From JALSIF01 sp026981635 [NCBI: bacterium] (GTDB lineage: Bacteria; 4484-113; JALSIF01): a stretch of DNA of 5,504 nt. Positions 1 through 5,504 of this stretch are shown one piece after another (the first letter of the stretch is position 1; every line of letters starts with the position of its first letter). The stretch lies in the NCBI GenBank assembly GCA_026981635.1, contig JALSIF010000039.1:1-5504 (forward strand), read 5' to 3'. Both the position numbers and the translations under genes were made by a program. The notes beneath the pieces were generated by a model, which made no database searches, was not told where the DNA came from, and saw only the letters and a program-made list of their open reading frames with translations.

Positions 1-43
1 ATGGTCCTTTCAAGACCTCACCAAATCTATAGGTTCCATGTGT
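1..43. other. Flank downstream of the primase-helicase-like gene
   Basis: These 43 bp lie beyond the stop codon of the minus-strand gene. I see no hairpin/T-tract terminator. Short start codons on either strand here run into stops within a few codons or leave the window, so no gene can be supported. The minus-strand transcript may continue into a following gene outside the window. Confidence 0.4.
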
Positions 44-2275
44 CTACCCCTCCCCTATCTCCACCACCCTAAACCTGCTGTAGTTGCGCTCATGGAGGAA
101 GAGGGCGTAGCCGGTCATGCCCCCGGTGGATTTTAGCAGCTCCAGGGCGGCGAAGGTGTGGCTCTCCTCGGCCTTGCCGCCCTGGCCAAAGTAGTTCTGC
201 TCAATCTCTCCCAGGTGCTTCCTTGCCTGCTCCAGGTCACCTACTTGGTGGGCGGGGAGGTGGTCAATGAGGTAGCTGGTGGTCCTTCCCAGGGGGCGAA
301 GCACCCCCACCGCGTCGGCAAACTCGGTGTCGCGGAAGAAGTTGGCGATGGCCTCCTCGCGGGCCTCCGCGGAGAGGCCGGCGGGGGGGCTGAAGATCTC
401 GTAGGTGCAAAGCACCACCACATCAAACTCCCGCGCCATGGACTTGAGCTGGCTCAGGGCCAGGTGGGTGTCTAGGCGGGAGCCCTCGGGGAGGCTGGCG
501 TTTAGGCCGCTTATGAACATGGGCAGGGTGTCAATGATGATGAGCGGGGTGGTCTTCTCCTCAAGCTCGGCCGCCACCGCCCTGAGGCGCTCGGTCTGCT
601 TTCTGAGGGCCTCAAAGTCGGTCGCCCAGGTCCCCTCCACCATGGCGATGGCCGAGTTGAACTCCTGGAACTTCTCGTAGGCCTGCTGGATCTGCTGGTT
701 GAACTGGTCGTCCTCCATGAGCAGGTCGGGCTCGGCCCGCGCCCGGTCAATGAGCTCGCTGGGCAGGGAGCCCACTGCGGCGAGGGACTTGAGGTATAGC
801 TCCTCAATCCCCCGCTGCATGGTGATAAAGAGGGAGACCGCCTGGCCGGTGCGGGCCGCCTCCAGCATCAGCCAGTTTACGAAGGTGCTCACCCCGGCAC
901 CGGGAAAGCCGCCGATGACGTAGACCTTGCCCGGGGTAAGCCCTCCCCCCAGCAGGCGGTTCAGGTCATTGCTGGGGGTGCGGATGAGGCGGCGCTCATG
1001 GCTGAAGAAGCGGCGCAGAAGCTCCGGAGCCAGGGCGTGGAGGTTTCTCAGGCTTACCTCCTCGCCCTCCTCCACCCGGTAGAAGAGCTGGGTGAGGCGG
1101 TCAAAGGTGATCACCCCGCCGGCCAGGCGGGCCTGGCCGCGGGCGTTCTGGTAGAGCTCCTCGGCCAGGGGGAGCTTCTGGGGGTAGGGGTCGCGGGGGG
1201 TGTACTTGCCGGGGCGCTTGGAAAGCTCATAGAGGGTGACGTAGTTGGTCCGCTTGAAGACCGATACGGGCAGGCGGATCTTGTGGGCCCCCTTGGGGGT
1301 AGAGAGGGCGGAGCCTAAGACCGGGGTGAGGGAGGTGGGGTCGTAGACCTGCCAGCTCAGCTGGCTCCACTGCTGGCGGAAGGCCTCCTCCTCCTCCGGC
1401 TCGTAGCCCAGAACTATCTCTGCCATTCGGCGAAATACCCGGTGGAGATCGGGCTGGGGCTCAATGCCGAAGACGGTAGCGTCCACCACCACCTCCAGCA
1501 GGCGGCCCGAGTAGTAGATGGAGATGGCGTCGGGGGGGATGTCGTAGCCCTTGTCCAGCCGGTCGATCACCTCCAGGGCCTGGTTGATGGCGTGGACCAT
1601 CTCGGAGGAGTTGTGGGCCTCAAAGACCACCTGGAAGTCGCCGTAGAGGTCAACCTGGCCCTCCTCAATGAGCTGGTCCAGGCGCTCCACCTCTTGGGTC
1701 AGGTAGGAGTAGCGGGACTGGTAGAGGTCGTTGTAGTTCTCTTTCAGGACTTCGGGAATCTCTTCGGGCCTGACCAGCACTCCGTGGGGGTGTTCCCGGT
1801 CGTGGTATTTCACCGGCACCCGGCGGCGGATGAGGCTGCCGTCCTCCTGGCGCTCAAACTCAAAGCGCACCAGGCGCAGGAAGCCGTAGCCGGGGGGCCG
1901 CTCCTGCTGGTCGTCCTCCAGGTCCACCCCCGCCTGCTCGGCCAGTTCCTGGATGGCCTCGTCCTCGCCAATCCCCTTGCCGGCGGCGTAGAGCTCGGCC
2001 AGGTTGGCAAAGATGAGCCGGCCGTGGTTGGGGGTGGTGTCGTCCTCCTTGAAGAAGACCCGCCCCGAGTCGCGCTCAATGAGCAGGAAGCCGTTTCCTC
2101 CCTCGCCCCCTCCGGCCAGCTCGGCCACCCGGGGGGGACAGGGGGCGAGGATCTCGTTGCCCTGCTCCCTTACCAGGGCCGGGTTTACCCCGATGGAGGT
2201 GAGCACCTTGATGGGGTCCAGCCGAGCAAAGAGCCTTTTCAGGCCTCCCTCGCTCTGATTTGTCTCGTGGACCAT
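44..2275 (-). CDS. Primase-helicase-like protein (degenerate CHC2 + AEP-like + DnaB/RecA-like domains), probably catalytically inactive
   Basis: Intact 743-residue protein from ATG (2275-2273) to TAG (46-44). No in-frame start lies upstream of this ATG before a TAA 18 nt away, and no good Shine-Dalgarno is visible, so the start is the longest possible rather than proven. Residues 18-118 resemble a DnaG CHC2 zinc-binding domain in layout (C46-P, a G-F-hydrophobic stretch at 62-66, and E-D-E-A-x-x-x-L-A-E-x-A-G at 104-116), but only one cysteine remains. Residues 130-370 look like an archaeo-eukaryotic primase fold (V-V-F-E-A-H at 216-221, Y-Y-S-G at 254-257, V-F-G-I-E-P near 268-273, K-I-R-L-P-V-S at 332-338). 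Residues 432-743 match a DnaB-type RecA core: L-G-G-G-L-x-P-G at 442-449, a P-loop-like G-F-P-G-A-G-V-S at 456-463, Walker B I-I-I-D at 579-582, and a terminal G-M-T-G block at 719-722. The P-loop Lys is V462, the DnaB catalytic Glu aligns with Q487, and the arginine finger aligns with T717. This is inferred by family-pattern reading; it could also be a divergent RadA/KaiC-type ATPase. No signal peptide or membrane segment is apparent, so it is probably cytoplasmic. Confidence 0.72.
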   Translation of the reverse strand: MVHETNQSEGGLKRLFARLDPIKVLTSIGVNPALVREQGNEILAPCPPRVAELAGGGEGGNGFLLIERDSGRVFFKEDDTTPNHGRLIFANLAELYAAGKGIGEDEAIQELAEQAGVDLEDDQQERPPGYGFLRLVRFEFERQEDGSLIRRRVPVKYHDREHPHGVLVRPEEIPEVLKENYNDLYQSRYSYLTQEVERLDQLIEEGQVDLYGDFQVVFEAHNSSEMVHAINQALEVIDRLDKGYDIPPDAISIYYSGRLLEVVVDATVFGIEPQPDLHRVFRRMAEIVLGYEPEEEEAFRQQWSQLSWQVYDPTSLTPVLGSALSTPKGAHKIRLPVSVFKRTNYVTLYELSKRPGKYTPRDPYPQKLPLAEELYQNARGQARLAGGVITFDRLTQLFYRVEEGEEVSLRNLHALAPELLRRFFSHERRLIRTPSNDLNRLLGGGLTPGKVYVIGGFPGAGVSTFVNWLMLEAARTGQAVSLFITMQRGIEELYLKSLAAVGSLPSELIDRARAEPDLLMEDDQFNQQIQQAYEKFQEFNSAIAMVEGTWATDFEALRKQTERLRAVAAELEEKTTPLIIIDTLPMFISGLNASLPEGSRLDTHLALSQLKSMAREFDVVVLCTYEIFSPPAGLSAEAREEAIANFFRDTEFADAVGVLRPLGRTTSYLIDHLPAHQVGDLEQARKHLGEIEQNYFGQGGKAEESHTFAALELLKSTGGMTGYALFLHERNYSRFRVVEIGEG

Positions 2276-2313
2276 AACCGGGTGAGATTCTTACCCGCCT
2301 GGGGGCTTTCCGG

Positions 2314-2342
2314 TTTATACGCCGCCTATCCTAACATAGCAC
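2314..2342 (-). promoter_or_regulatory. Candidate sigma70-like promoter for the primase-helicase-like gene
   Basis: On the minus strand a -10 box TATAAA (complement of 2314-2319, five of six matches to TATAAT) lies 17 nt downstream of GTGCTA (complement of 2337-2342, three of six matches to TTGACA). Transcription would start about 30 nt before the ATG at 2275. The -35 is weak, so the call rests mainly on the -10 box and the position. Confidence 0.35.
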
Positions 2343-2345
2343 CGC

Positions 2346-2358
2346 GGCCAACTTGGCC
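2346..2358. repeat. Perfect 13-bp palindrome GGCCAA-C-TTGGCC, possible operator
   Basis: Two 6-bp arms, GGCCAA and TTGGCC, are exact reverse complements separated by one C. The element ends 19 bp before the argS ATG and lies just upstream of the candidate minus-strand promoter, so a dimeric regulator bound here could affect either gene. A hairpin with a single-base loop is sterically impossible at full length, which makes a protein-binding site more plausible than an RNA structure. It could still be a chance palindrome in GC-rich DNA. Confidence 0.3.
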
Positions 2359-2361
2359 AGT

Positions 2362-2371
2362 GGGGGAAAGG
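2362..2371 (+). promoter_or_regulatory. Ribosome binding site of argS
   Basis: The purine run GGGGGAAAGG ends 6 nt before the ATG at 2378. It is a partial match to the AAGGAGG consensus at a normal spacing. It selects this ATG over the reading frame's open extension upstream, which runs antisense through the neighbouring gene. Confidence 0.6.
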
Positions 2372-2377
2372 TACAGG

Positions 2378-4234
2378 ATGGGTCTGAGAGCAGGGCTTAG
2401 AGAGCGGGTGAGGGCGGTGCTCAGGGACCGCTATGGGATTCCCACAGAGGTGGAGCTTGAGCCCATTACCGAGCCGCGGCCGTGGGGATATTCCACCAAC
2501 GTGGCCCTGCGCATCGCTGGGCGGCTGGCGGAGGAGGAGATCGCCCGGCTGGACCCCAGCCTCTCCAAGAAGGAGCGCAAGAGGCGGGAGAAGGCGCTGG
2601 TGCGGGAGCATGCCCTGCGGGCGGCGGAGGAGCTGGCGGCGGAGCTTTCCCGGGAACTTCCTGCGGGAGTTGCCCGGGTGGAGGCGGAAAACGGTTTTGT
2701 CAACTTCTACCTGGACCCGGCGGTCTACGGACGGGAGCTGATCGGTCAGATACTGGCTGACCCGGCGGGGCTGGCGCGGGGCGAGCCGCGGCAGGAGAAG
2801 GTGATGGTGGAGTTCAGCCAGCCCAACACCCACAAGCCCTTCCATGTGGGACATCTCAGAAACACCCTGCTGGGCAACGCCCTTTCTAACCTGCTTGAGT
2901 TTGCCGGCTATCCGGTGGTCAGGGCCAACTACTACGGGGACATCGGGCTTCACGTGATCAAGTGCCTGTGGGGGCTGATGCACCTCGGGGAGCTGGGCAT
3001 AGAGCGGGAGGAGGGGGAGAGCGAGGGGCGCTTCCTGGGCCGGGTCTACTCGGCGGTGGACCGCCTGCTGGGGGAGGATGGGCCCGAGCGGGAGCGGGTG
3101 GAGCGGGAGATCCGCACCCTACACCAGCGCTGGGACCGGCGCGACCCTGAGGTGGTGGACCTGTGGGAGAAGACCCGCAGGGCCTCGCTGGAGGAGTTTC
3201 GCCGCATCTACCGCGACCTGGGGGTCTCCTTTGAGCTGGAGTTCTTTGAGTCGCAGGTGGAGGAGGCGGGCAAGGAGGCGGTGCGTGACCTTCTGGAGAA
3301 GGGGGTGGCGGAGGTCTCCCAGGACCCCGAATACCGGGGGGCGGTCTTTGTGGACCTGGCGGAAAAGACCGGCGACGAGACGCTGGGCAAGCTGGTCATC
3401 CTTCGGGCCGACGGGACCACCCTCTACTCCACCAAGGACCTGGCCCTGGCCCGGATCAAGTTTGAGCGCTACGGGATTGACCGCAGCCTCTACGTGGTGG
3501 CCAGCGAGCAGTCCCTCTACTTCCGCCAGATCTTTGCCATCCTGCGCCTGTGGGGATTCCCCCAGGCGGAGCGCTGCGTCCACATCCCCTACGAGCTGGT
3601 GGTGCTGCCGGAGGGGAAGATGAGCTCCCGGCGGGGGACGGTGGTGCTGTTTGACGAGCTGTGGGACCGGGCGGTGGAGCTCTATACCGCCATCACCCGC
3701 CGCAAGCGGGAGGAGCGGGGGGGCGAGGAGGAGGGGGAGGAGGAGAATGCCCGCCTCATCGCCCTGGGGGCGATCAAGTACTACATGCTGGCGGTGGACA
3801 AGATGAAGCAGGTGGTGTTTGACTTTGACGAGGCCCTCAGCCCCGACGGGAGAAGCGGGGTCTACCTGCAGTACAGCTACGTGAGGGCGCGCCGCATCCT
3901 GGAGAAGGCAGGGCTTGACCCGGACGGGGCGGGGGCGGAGCTGGTTCCCGGGGAGGAGGTTGAGCTTCAGCCTGCCGAGGTGGGGCTGATGAGACGCATG
4001 GACGGCTTTTCCTTCGTGGTGGAGCAGGCGCTGGAGCAGCTTGACCCCTCGCCCCTGGCCCACTGGGCCTACCAGCTTGCTCGCGACTTCACCGACTTCT
4101 ACACCGCCTGTCCGGTGATCCGGGCGGGGGAGCCCTCGCGCAGCTTCCGGCTGGCCCTGACCGCCGCCTTTGCCCGCCTGATGGAGACGGTCTCAACCCG
4201 CCTGCTCTCCATCGGGCTTCCCCGGGAGATGTAG
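2378..4234 (+). CDS. argS: Arginyl-tRNA synthetase
   Basis: Cytoplasmic class I aminoacyl-tRNA synthetase that charges tRNA-Arg with arginine using ATP. The 618-residue length is slightly above the usual 550-600 of bacterial ArgS. Residues 1 to about 125 form the N-terminal additional domain typical of ArgS (it opens M-G-L-R-A-G-L-R-E-R-V). The HIGH signature is H-V-G-H at 156-159 within F-S-Q-P-N-T-H-K-P-F (146-155), and the KMSKS equivalent is K-M-S-S-R at 414-418. The C-terminal anticodon-binding DALR domain begins near residue 490 (Y-L-Q-Y-S-Y-V-R-A-R-R at 496-506) and runs to the end. The start is fixed by the RBS at 2362-2371 and by the N-terminal domain. The F-S-Q-P-N-T-H-K block is the variant I associate with a subset of bacteria (for example Chloroflexi and Deinococcus-type ArgS) and with eukaryote-like enzymes, not the common proteobacterial form. 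An acidic Gly/Glu tract follows a basic stretch at about residues 445-458. The gene is transcribed divergently from the primase-helicase-like gene and ends 85 bp before the tRNA, with no terminator between. Confidence 0.96.
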   Translation: MGLRAGLRERVRAVLRDRYGIPTEVELEPITEPRPWGYSTNVALRIAGRLAEEEIARLDPSLSKKERKRREKALVREHALRAAEELAAELSRELPAGVARVEAENGFVNFYLDPAVYGRELIGQILADPAGLARGEPRQEKVMVEFSQPNTHKPFHVGHLRNTLLGNALSNLLEFAGYPVVRANYYGDIGLHVIKCLWGLMHLGELGIEREEGESEGRFLGRVYSAVDRLLGEDGPERERVEREIRTLHQRWDRRDPEVVDLWEKTRRASLEEFRRIYRDLGVSFELEFFESQVEEAGKEAVRDLLEKGVAEVSQDPEYRGAVFVDLAEKTGDETLGKLVILRADGTTLYSTKDLALARIKFERYGIDRSLYVVASEQSLYFRQIFAILRLWGFPQAERCVHIPYELVVLPEGKMSSRRGTVVLFDELWDRAVELYTAITRRKREERGGEEEGEEENARLIALGAIKYYMLAVDKMKQVVFDFDEALSPDGRSGVYLQYSYVRARRILEKAGLDPDGAGAELVPGEEVELQPAEVGLMRRMDGFSFVVEQALEQLDPSPLAHWAYQLARDFTDFYTACPVIRAGEPSRSFRLALTAAFARLMETVSTRLLSIGLPREM

Positions 4235-4267
4235 CGGGAGGGGCGGGCCAGGGCTGGGGTGGCTGGT

Positions 4268-4281
4268 AAGACAAAGGTCTT
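4268..4281. repeat. 5-bp inverted repeat AAGAC-N4-GTCTT overlapping the tRNA promoter -35
   Basis: AAGAC (4268-4272) and GTCTT (4277-4281) are exact reverse complements around AAAG. The right arm shares two bases with the TTGACA box at 4280-4285. There is no T-tract after it, so it is not an intrinsic terminator for argS. It could be a weak operator or chance. Confidence 0.2.
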
Positions 4282-4308
4282 GACAGGCGGGGTATATTGT
4301 GTTAGTAG
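4280..4308 (+). promoter_or_regulatory. Sigma70-like promoter of the initiator tRNA gene
   Basis: A perfect -35 box TTGACA (4280-4285) is followed after 17 bp by TAGTAG (4303-4308, three of six matches to TATAAT). This would place transcription initiation about 5-7 nt before the tRNA 5' end at 4320. A better -10-like TATATT (4293-4298) lies too close to this -35 to be used with it. A GC-rich segment around the inferred start (GCCGC) would fit a growth-rate-controlled discriminator, which is inference only. Confidence 0.6.
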
Positions 4309-4319
4309 TAGATAGCCGC

Positions 4320-4393
4320 TGCGGGGTGGAGCGGTCTGGTAGCTCGCCGGGCTCATAACCCGGAGGTCGCGGGTTCAAATCCCGCCCCCGCAA
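4320..4393 (+). tRNA. Initiator tRNA-fMet (anticodon CAT)
   Basis: A full cloverleaf folds. The acceptor is TGCGGGG (4320-4326) with CCCCGCA (4386-4392). The D stem is GAGC/GCTC (4329-4332, 4342-4345). The anticodon stem is CCGGG/CCCGG around loop CTCATAA, with CAT at 4354-4356. The variable loop is AGGTC, and the T arm is GCGGG-TTCAAAT-CCCGC (4369-4385). The discriminator base is A73 (4393), and CCA is not encoded (CTT follows), so a CCA-adding enzyme is required. Three consecutive G-C pairs next to the anticodon loop (positions 29-31/39-41) and an A11:U24 pair mark it as the initiator rather than elongator tRNA-Met. The body closely resembles E. coli tRNA-fMet. The oddity is U1 paired with A72 instead of the usual C1xA72 mismatch. 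Confidence 0.93.
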
Positions 4394-4394
4394 C

Positions 4395-4401
4395 TTTTTT
4401 T
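4395..4401 (+). terminator. Possible tRNA 3' U-tract
   Basis: Seven consecutive T residues start two bases after the discriminator base, followed by ATTT. There is no separate hairpin immediately before them, only the tRNA acceptor and T arm. They may help release or processing of the tRNA transcript, with the true terminator at 4461-4491 downstream. Confidence 0.3.
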
Positions 4402-4460
4402 ATTTCCGGACGCCTCCCCTCCTCCCTCTCCTCTGCCCGCCTTCGGTCTCTCCTGCGGGC

Positions 4461-4491
4461 CGGGCGGCTTTCCTGCCAGGGCCCGTTTTTT
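4461..4491 (+). terminator. Rho-independent terminator between the tRNA and the sensor gene
   Basis: CGGGC (4461-4465) pairs with GCCCG (4481-4485). Inside it GGC (4466-4468) pairs with GCC (4475-4477) around a TTTCCT loop, with AGG bulged on the 3' side. Six T residues follow directly (4486-4491). It most likely ends the initiator tRNA transcript, possibly also argS read-through. Its T-tract ends 17 nt before the GTG of the sensor gene, which is unusually close and leaves no room for a separate promoter. Confidence 0.7.
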
Positions 4492-4508
4492 GAGGGTAGA
4501 CTTTCGGC

Positions 4509-5504
4509 GTGAAGGGAAGAAGCGAGCCGGACGGTAGGAGAGGAGATAGGTCAGGCGACAGGGAGCGAGCGGTCCGGGGAAGGATCTCCCCCCTCAGGCT
4601 GGGCATCATCGCGGTGGCGGCCATCTTTGTGGCCGAGTTTGCCATCATGCACAACCTCGGCTGGCTGCTGGAGGAGGCGGGCCGCAAAAGCCATGTTCTG
4701 GAGTCTCTGCTGGACGCCCTGCTGGTCTCCCTCATTGCGGCGGGGGCCATCGGGGTTCTGCTGGTTAGGCCCCTGGAACGGGCCCTTGCCGCCTTGCGGA
4801 GGCTGTCTAGTCGGTTGCGCCATGAGCTTGAGATAAGCGAAGCCAAGTTTGTGGCGGTTTTCAAGCAGAGCTTTGAGTACATGGGGATTCTTGACCCGGA
4901 GGGCCGCTTTCTGGAAGTAAACGACATCGGGTTGGCGCTGGGGGGAGTGGAGCTGGAGGAGGTGAGGGGAAGGCACATCTGGGAGACCCTCTGGTGGGAG
5001 GGCATGGACGAGGAGCAGGAGAAGCTCAGGCAGGCGGTGGAGCGGGCCAGGGCTGGCGAGGTGGTCACCCAGGAGCTGCGGGTTATAGCCAGGGAAAGGA
5101 TTTGCTGGGTGGACTTTTCCCTCAAGCCCGTCTGGGGAGAGGAGGGGCAGGTTGAGTTCCTGCTCGCCGAGGGAAGGGACATCACCCAGCGCAAGCAAAC
5201 TGAGCAAAGGCTTCGCCTGCTGGCCCAGGCGGTTGAGTCAACCAGCGATGGGGTGATCATCACCGACCTGGAGGGGACCATTCTGGAAGTGAACCCTGCC
5301 TTCTCCCGCATCACCGGCTACTCGGCCGAGGAGGCGGTGGGCAAGAACCCGAGGATCCTCAAAAGCGGCAGGCAGCCGCCCGAGTTCTATCGCCAGATGT
5401 GGGATACCCTGCTTGCGGGCAAGACCTGGCAGGGCAAGGTAATAAACCGGCGCAAGGACGGCTCCCTCTACCACGCCAGCCTGACCATATCCCCCATCGT
5501 CAAC
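4509..5504 (+). CDS. Membrane-anchored PAS-domain sensor protein, 3' truncated by the window
   Basis: Open for 332 codons to the last base of the window, so the output domain (histidine kinase, diguanylate cyclase or other) is unknown. GTG at 4509 is the first possible start after an in-frame TAG (4497-4499). A weak GAGGG lies 12 nt upstream. No other ATG, GTG or TTG occurs before the first membrane segment, so this start is favoured. The N-terminus (residues 1-30) is strongly basic and arginine-rich. Two hydrophobic segments follow at about 31-50 and 67-87, separated by only about 16 residues, so little of the protein is exposed outside. A charged helical linker (88-110) leads to PAS domain 1 (about 111-228, with I-L-D-P-E-G-R-F-L-E-V-N at 127-138 and the PAC-type end G-R-D-I-T-Q-R-K at 222-229). 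PAS domain 2 starts near 240 (I-I-T-D-L-E-G at 250-256, N-R-R-K-D-G at 313-318) and is cut by the window end. Signals are probably sensed by the PAS domains inside the cell or at the membrane. Confidence 0.9.
   Translation, partial: MKGRSEPDGRRGDRSGDRERAVRGRISPLRLGIIAVAAIFVAEFAIMHNLGWLLEEAGRKSHVLESLLDALLVSLIAAGAIGVLLVRPLERALAALRRLSSRLRHELEISEAKFVAVFKQSFEYMGILDPEGRFLEVNDIGLALGGVELEEVRGRHIWETLWWEGMDEEQEKLRQAVERARAGEVVTQELRVIARERICWVDFSLKPVWGEEGQVEFLLAEGRDITQRKQTEQRLRLLAQAVESTSDGVIITDLEGTILEVNPAFSRITGYSAEEAVGKNPRILKSGRQPPEFYRQMWDTLLAGKTWQGKVINRRKDGSLYHASLTISPIVN

Follow-up and report, generated by a model that had tools for sequence, protein, structure and literature searches.

A probable chromosomal pseudoenzyme combining zinc ribbon, AEP/PrimPol and DnaB-like domains in the bacterial phylum 4484-113

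Introduction

Two kinds of described system come closest to the protein treated here. In the metazoan mitochondrial protein Twinkle the primase half is inactivated and three of the four zinc cysteines are missing while the helicase is active, according to the sections of PMC7231222 that concern it. Among the archaeo-eukaryotic primases (AEPs) of bacterial mobile elements some are fused to DnaB-type ATPases (PrimQH family), and the pertinent part of PMC5862659 describes such fusions as common. We analysed a stretch of 5,504 nucleotides, hereafter the window, from the bacterium JALSIF01 sp026981635 (assembly GCA_026981635.1, contig JALSIF010000039.1, positions 1 to 5,504 of the forward strand), which carries a gene for a fusion of a primase-like and a helicase-like part. 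Its phylum, 4484-113, is Candidatus Niteriota, for which 12 genomes of 1.54–4.11 Mb are given in the relevant portion of PMC11382960.

With Twinkle the protein shares the joining of primase and helicase and a dead primase half. In Twinkle, as far as the cited sections go, this half is a TOPRIM and not an AEP domain and the helicase is active, whereas the fusion protein lacks the catalytic residues of both halves. The AEP fold and its fusion to a RecA-type ATPase are shared with the AEP/PrimPols of mobile elements; the latter are described as primases in the cited part of the source, whereas the protein studied here has no catalytic motifs, occurs in all ten sampled genomes of the phylum and is often found beside argS. 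Compared with T7 gp4 and DnaB of helicase superfamily 4, the RecA fold, the Walker-B Asp and, in nine of ten rows, the K-N-R-x-G finger motif are common to both, but the Walker-A Lys, the catalytic Glu and the sensor Gln are missing and the stretch RESGSIEQDAD is altered. Other non-catalytic replisome subunits that derive from enzymes offer a further comparison. The literature searched for such proteins and on Twinkle yielded no account of a fusion in which both halves are dead; this does not prove that none exists.

We read the protein, with a probability of roughly 0.6, as a chromosomal pseudoenzyme in which a CHC2 zinc ribbon, an AEP/PrimPol domain and a DnaB-like RecA domain are joined, both active sites are inactivated and the role is one of non-catalytic binding. 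What our data suggest as new is a fusion with both halves dead that is present in every sampled genome of the phylum and is strongly constrained.

Results and Discussion

The fusion gene and its orthologues

The frame is uninterrupted from the ATG at 2275 down to the stop codon at 44 and encodes 743 amino acids, in agreement with an earlier reading of the window from its letters alone (the sequence-only reading). The gene, its parts and the positions of interest are as follows.

44–2275, minus strand: gene of the 743-residue fusion, stop codon included, a predicted dead primase–helicase (open frame; orthologues in all nine other genomes of the phylum)
1901–2275, minus strand: N-terminal part, residues 1–125, counterpart of a CHC2-type zinc ribbon (Zn_ribbon_DnaG in three of ten members; ligand columns)
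1022–1900, minus strand: domain of AEP/PrimPol fold, residues 126–418 (model, VIA-align rows, alignment with two phage AEPs)
47–1021, minus strand: end of the linker helix and DnaB/gp4-like RecA domain, residues 419–743 (DnaB_C, 1.7e-8; 3bgw_A, Z 27.1)
890–892, minus strand: Val462, position of the Walker-A Lys (Thr in all nine orthologues, from the alignment)
815–817, minus strand: Gln487, position of the catalytic Glu of SLEM (Gln in 10 of 10)
530–532, minus strand: Asp582, Walker-B Asp (invariant in the ten proteins)
401–403, minus strand: Tyr625, where DnaB has the SQL Gln (no Gln in any of the ten proteins)
125–127, minus strand: Thr717, arginine-finger position (Arg in all nine orthologues, Thr in the window protein alone)

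Orthologues were searched for in 60 genomes, the window's own included, in which its class is represented by the window genome and nine others. All nine others of the phylum carry an orthologue that is colinear through the AEP and RecA parts (E 8e-84 to 1.6e-122) and, in the alignment, 29–34% identical to the window protein. The sampled genomes of the phylum measure 1.5–4.0 Mb; that of the window (G000; the other genomes carry G numbers and loci L numbers) is 85% complete. The alignment comprises ten rows, the window protein and its nine orthologues, of which the G008 row consists of a 585-residue piece only and the G001 row of a 681-residue frame that begins past the zinc ribbon.

The RecA half lacks the catalytic residues of a helicase

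A DnaB/RecA-type domain had been proposed for 47–982, which corresponds to residues 432–743, and this proposal stands. Pfam DnaB_C matches residues 433–623 above its cut-off (1.7e-8; 34.6 versus 27 bits) and is found in all ten members of the family. The AlphaFold model of the full-length protein, built on the ten-row alignment, has a predicted local distance difference test score (pLDDT) of 77.5 and a predicted template modelling score (pTM) of 0.46. Its residues 429–739 superpose on DnaB-type helicases (3bgw_A: Z 27.1, root mean square deviation 2.7, 251 residues aligned), so that profile and superposition both assign the DnaB-type RecA fold to the C-terminal domain. Pfam listed no match to the DnaB N-terminal domain for the fusion protein, whose N-terminal half holds the AEP fold. 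A DnaB_C match alone can mislabel such proteins as replicative helicases.

The residue assignments of the sequence-only reading agree with an alignment to canonical DnaBs of the phylum, into which five of the nine DnaBs were entered, the motifs being checked separately in all nine. Val462 (codon GTG, read from 892 to 890; CAC on the plus strand), Gln487 and Tyr625 occupy the positions of the Lys, the Glu and the Gln, Asp582 is the Walker-B Asp, and Thr717 aligns with the Arg in K-[HN]-R-N-G-P, the arginine-finger position. Neither the Walker-A Lys nor the catalytic Glu occurs in any of the ten fusion proteins (0/10 each), which therefore lack the catalytic residues of a helicase. Orthologues with Lys or Glu at these sites would have spoken against the earlier proposal; all nine have Thr and Gln instead. 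Because none of them has the Lys or the Glu, and none has Gln at 625, the losses are not due to chance or to a single error. A sequencing error in the Val462 codon as the full explanation is ruled out by the Thr, again not Lys, in 9/9 orthologues.

The statement that all key positions are substituted is correct for the sites of Lys, Glu, Gln and Arg, but it goes too far in that Asp582, the Ser/Thr following the Walker-A Lys position (residue 463) and the finger residue Lys715 are kept in 10/10. The P-loop residues Gly456, Pro458, Gly459 and Gly461 are likewise invariant in the ten proteins, as are Thr624 and Glu626 on either side of Tyr625. Four losses had been counted. Lys, Glu and Gln are indeed lost in all ten, but the loss of the Arg is private to the window lineage: the nine orthologues have the motif K-N-R, giving an Arg in nine of ten rows, so that the four losses together are not a trait of the family. 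In addition, where DnaB has RESGSIEQDAD the fusion proteins have a shorter and changed stretch; this argues against a DnaB-like translocation on DNA.

The N-terminal half combines a counterpart of a zinc ribbon with an AEP/PrimPol fold without catalytic motifs

The protein had been regarded as a paralogue of a replicative helicase. It is not simply such a paralogue: the N-terminal half, a CHC2-type ribbon and a dead AEP/PrimPol domain, had been overlooked. Residues 126–418 folded alone gave a model with pLDDT 85.8 and pTM 0.82, residues 388–418 being of low confidence. In the comparison with VIA-align the best 50 rows were all AEP primases/PrimPols or complexes containing one, the best being 1v33 (Z 12.6, root mean square deviation 3.2, 191 residues aligned); model and comparison together assign the AEP fold to this region. 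The top rows of Foldseek alone were AEPs as well (best E 2.2e-3), with unrelated folds from rank 38 down.

By tblastn we reached two phage AEPs: one, from a Bacillus phage, is named 'putative DNA primase' (1e-5), the other 'DNA primase small subunit' (3e-3). Both carry a D-x-D motif (DFD or DLD) and SGxKGxH. The AEP alignment extends to about residue 380 of the window protein; in it Val217 and Glu219 stand where the phage proteins have the Asp pair, and Glu261 where they have the His. The catalytic Asp residues (217, 219) and the His (261) are absent from all ten fusion proteins; at the third Asp position (307) five of the ten have Asp. An unrelated genome (G143) contains a stand-alone AEP-like open reading frame of 388 amino acids with its catalytic motifs kept (L079:1426–2592; DIDSED, SGSKGFHI). 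The relatives found with intact AEP motifs are the proteins of the two phages and this open reading frame.

Zn_ribbon_DnaG (Pfam) matches three of the ten members, at best with 3.3e-7. Since the rows of G001 and G008 begin after the ribbon, the zinc ligands were counted on seven other rows, and all seven contain the four Cys/His ligands. The window protein retains one of four, Cys46. In G001 (L010), whose frame starts past the ribbon, the ribbon may be lost too.

As both catalytic centres are without their key residues, the protein is, as far as the sequence can say, a doubly dead primase–helicase fusion, in which priming and ATP hydrolysis would both have been lost.

The fusion gene occurs in every sampled genome of the phylum and is maintained in the relatives

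A profile of the middle (AEP) domain was run against 385 genomes, ten from the phylum of the window and 375 others. It matched 10/10 genomes of the phylum, and two weak matches were obtained among the 375. The fusion frame is unbroken in nine of the ten genomes. In G008 (L009 / L037) it is split into frames of 187 and 585 amino acids lying a few bases apart; the record that matches G008 gives its coverage as about 2.9, and the split may stem from an assembly error.

Ratios of non-synonymous to synonymous substitution rates (dN/dS) were determined by the Nei–Gojobori method with our own script for four pairs of relatives. The same-genus pairs G003/G006 and G007/G008 gave 0.065 and 0.137 for the whole protein and 0.047 and 0.125 for the RecA domain, respectively. 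For the more distant pairs G002/G004 and G003/G009, which are near synonymous saturation, the overall values are 0.070 and 0.215. Among its relatives the fusion protein is under purifying selection. The selection that had been supposed is thereby borne out for the relatives, while the lineage of the window itself is not covered by the same-genus pairs. A decaying gene is ruled out by the frame unbroken in nine of ten genomes together with the values of 0.065 and 0.137 in relatives.

For the nine relatives (36 pairs) we compared the divergence of the fusion protein with that of canonical DnaB. Mean pairwise identity is 45% for the fusion versus 49% for DnaB, and the two are correlated with r = 0.89; on average the fusion protein of the relatives diverges about as slowly as DnaB and in step with it. 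In the pair G002/G004 it diverges more slowly than DnaB (71% vs 60% identity).

All nine relatives have a canonical DnaB in which the GK[ST], S-x-E, SQL and K-[HN]-R-N-G-P motifs are intact, by which the possibility that the fusion is the only DnaB of these cells is ruled out. A DnaG match was obtained in 10/10 genomes, in nine of them above the family cut-off. The window genome, in which DnaG is present, yielded no match to a canonical DnaB_C and none to the DnaB N-terminal domain; this genome being 85% complete, we do not claim that DnaB is absent.

The coexistence with DnaB bears on the idea that the fusion protein is a partner of the real DnaB in a hetero-oligomer, where the dead subunit would supply the active ones with its K-N-R finger in trans. 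V-type ATPases offer a precedent, as their non-catalytic B subunit lends a finger in trans. The finger Lys is kept in ten and the Arg in nine of ten proteins despite the dead site in cis, and intact DnaB is at hand in the nine relatives. However, the protein gives no match to the DnaB N-terminal domain, its sequence is far from that of DnaB, and the window protein lacks the finger Arg, in an incomplete genome where no canonical DnaB was found. We consider such a partnership unlikely. It is similarly improbable that the protein is a phylum-specific core subunit of the replisome, which would assemble with the active DnaB ring, contribute fingers and a head of AEP domain and zinc ribbon binding single-stranded DNA, and couple or limit priming by DnaG.

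An origin as a phage or plasmid gene was also considered. Matches covering 80% of the query were found neither in 265 phage records searched with the window protein, nor in 345 phage records searched with the G003 protein, nor in 21 plasmid records searched with the G005 protein, and this absence rules out a phage or plasmid gene. In IMG/VR four loci match, in the RecA region only; the IMG/VR search with a single protein led nowhere.

A related family in another phylum

Via one weak match we reached a related family (G127 clade) in another bacterial phylum, with open frames of 628–817 amino acids. It occurs in 21 of the 39 genomes of its phylum, all inside one family of 24 genomes. The one-to-one comparison of the full profiles by hhalign related it to the fusion with a probability of 99.6 (E 1e-23, 529 columns), and the AEP part alone gave 93.9 (E 1.5e-7). 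Like the protein of the window it is a colinear fusion of an AEP-like and a RecA part, and, judged by eye from 20 aligned rows, it appears to have no D-x-D before the conserved helix. Pfam named neither an AEP domain nor a zinc ribbon in the one member scanned. Unlike the fusion of the window it keeps the Walker-A Lys in 20/20, and its SLEM position is occupied by Glu in 16 rows and by Asp in four. The residue after this Lys is Gly, Ala or Phe and not Ser/Thr in 17/20 (L082–L101), so that its ATPase may be impaired by another route. The order of losses could then be that the primase died first and that the RecA site subsequently decayed differently in the two phyla. A family in which different parts of this site have gone would allow the steps from ATPase to scaffold to be traced. 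Upstream of the G127 gene, L080:46–1080 shows a weak match to alkaline phosphatase (8.4e-5, below the Pfam cut-off).

The related family also matters for the alternative that the RecA half is a remodelled but active ATPase, with Thr462, Gln487, Thr624, Glu626 and Lys715/Arg717 forming a changed site that hydrolyses or switches. The P-loop glycines, Ser/Thr463, Asp582, Thr624 and Glu626, kept in 10/10, exceed what a free scaffold would require, and the related family retains both the Lys and an acidic residue at the SLEM position throughout. On the other hand, the Walker-A Lys and the catalytic Glu are gone in all ten fusion proteins, the primase site has been lost too, and the window lineage has in addition given up the finger Arg and has Val instead of Thr at 462. 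The related family, with Ser/Thr missing after the Lys in most members, is itself of uncertain activity. An active site of this kind seems improbable to us.

Possible role of the fusion protein

According to the reading we prefer, that of a chromosomal pseudoenzyme, the fusion would work as a binding protein, its subunits probably assembled into an oligomer through the RecA fold. It might serve as a scaffold or exert regulation on single-stranded DNA or at the replication fork, in replication or repair. A subunit interface still in use, perhaps together with passive binding of nucleotide, would account for the retention of the P-loop glycines, the Walker-B Asp and, outside the window lineage, the K-N-R finger.

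Several points weigh against this reading. With the RESGSIEQDAD stretch altered, it is doubtful that the RecA part binds DNA in the manner of DnaB. Foldseek alone yielded no match for the AEP domain at E 0.001 or better, and the residue correspondences to DnaB and to AEP enzymes come from sequence alignments. The window protein is the most diverged of the family, has no close relative in the sample and lies outside the selection tests and the comparison with DnaB. In pairs with G001 the fusion diverges clearly faster than DnaB (46% vs 65% identity for G001/G005). Finally, the surroundings of the gene give no hint of replication; they comprise argS and genes for a CODH/ACS-like protein, an LPG_synthase_TM protein and TetR regulators.

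This last point would suit a domesticated replication protein of a mobile element that is used outside replication, for instance as a protein of the nucleoid, a mediator of repair or a regulator that binds DNA. AEP–helicase fusions are common in bacterial mobile elements, as the section of PMC5862659 on them indicates, and phages supply two of the three relatives that keep the AEP motifs, the third being the stand-alone 388-residue frame. But ribbon, AEP and RecA parts have been kept together in most of the phylum, with the ribbon ligands in 7/7 of the other rows that reach them. This joint retention and a divergence close to that of DnaB favour a role in replication or repair, and we regard domestication for another purpose as rather unlikely.

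Twinkle demonstrates that the primase half of such a fusion can be lost. Here both halves look inactivated, beside ordinary DnaB and DnaG in the relatives. If the pseudoenzyme reading is true, bacterial genome maintenance includes a non-catalytic component derived from a whole primase–helicase of the mobile-element type.

Neighbouring genes

The divergent neighbour of the fusion gene is argS.

2378–4234, plus strand: argS (Pfam tRNA-synt_1d, 2.8e-54)

It is directly divergent from the fusion gene in five of the ten genomes, namely those of the window, G002, G003, G004 and G006, and lies about 2.3 kb from it in G007. In flanks of about 8 kb upstream in G001, G005 and G009 no argS was seen; the contig of G008 is short. 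The adjacency is common to three families of the phylum, which favours an old chromosomal residence over a mobile element, and the fusion gene is probably inherited vertically.

In three loci a protein of 580–584 amino acids adjoins argS (L031:4211–5953, L032:4303–6057 and L033:4303–6057). The copy in L031 matches the C-terminal part of the beta subunit of carbon monoxide dehydrogenase/acetyl-CoA synthase (CODH/ACS; 2.3e-32), an odd neighbour.

The open frame of argS begins at 1442, while the limits of homology and an in-frame ATG place the start near 2378. The roughly 310 codons upstream of the likely start (1442–2377) thus run antisense over the fusion gene; this extension looks like a shadow frame of high-GC DNA and is not likely to be coding. 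A tRNA-Met gene (anticodon CAT) is situated at 4320–4394, between argS and a gene for a PAS-domain protein.

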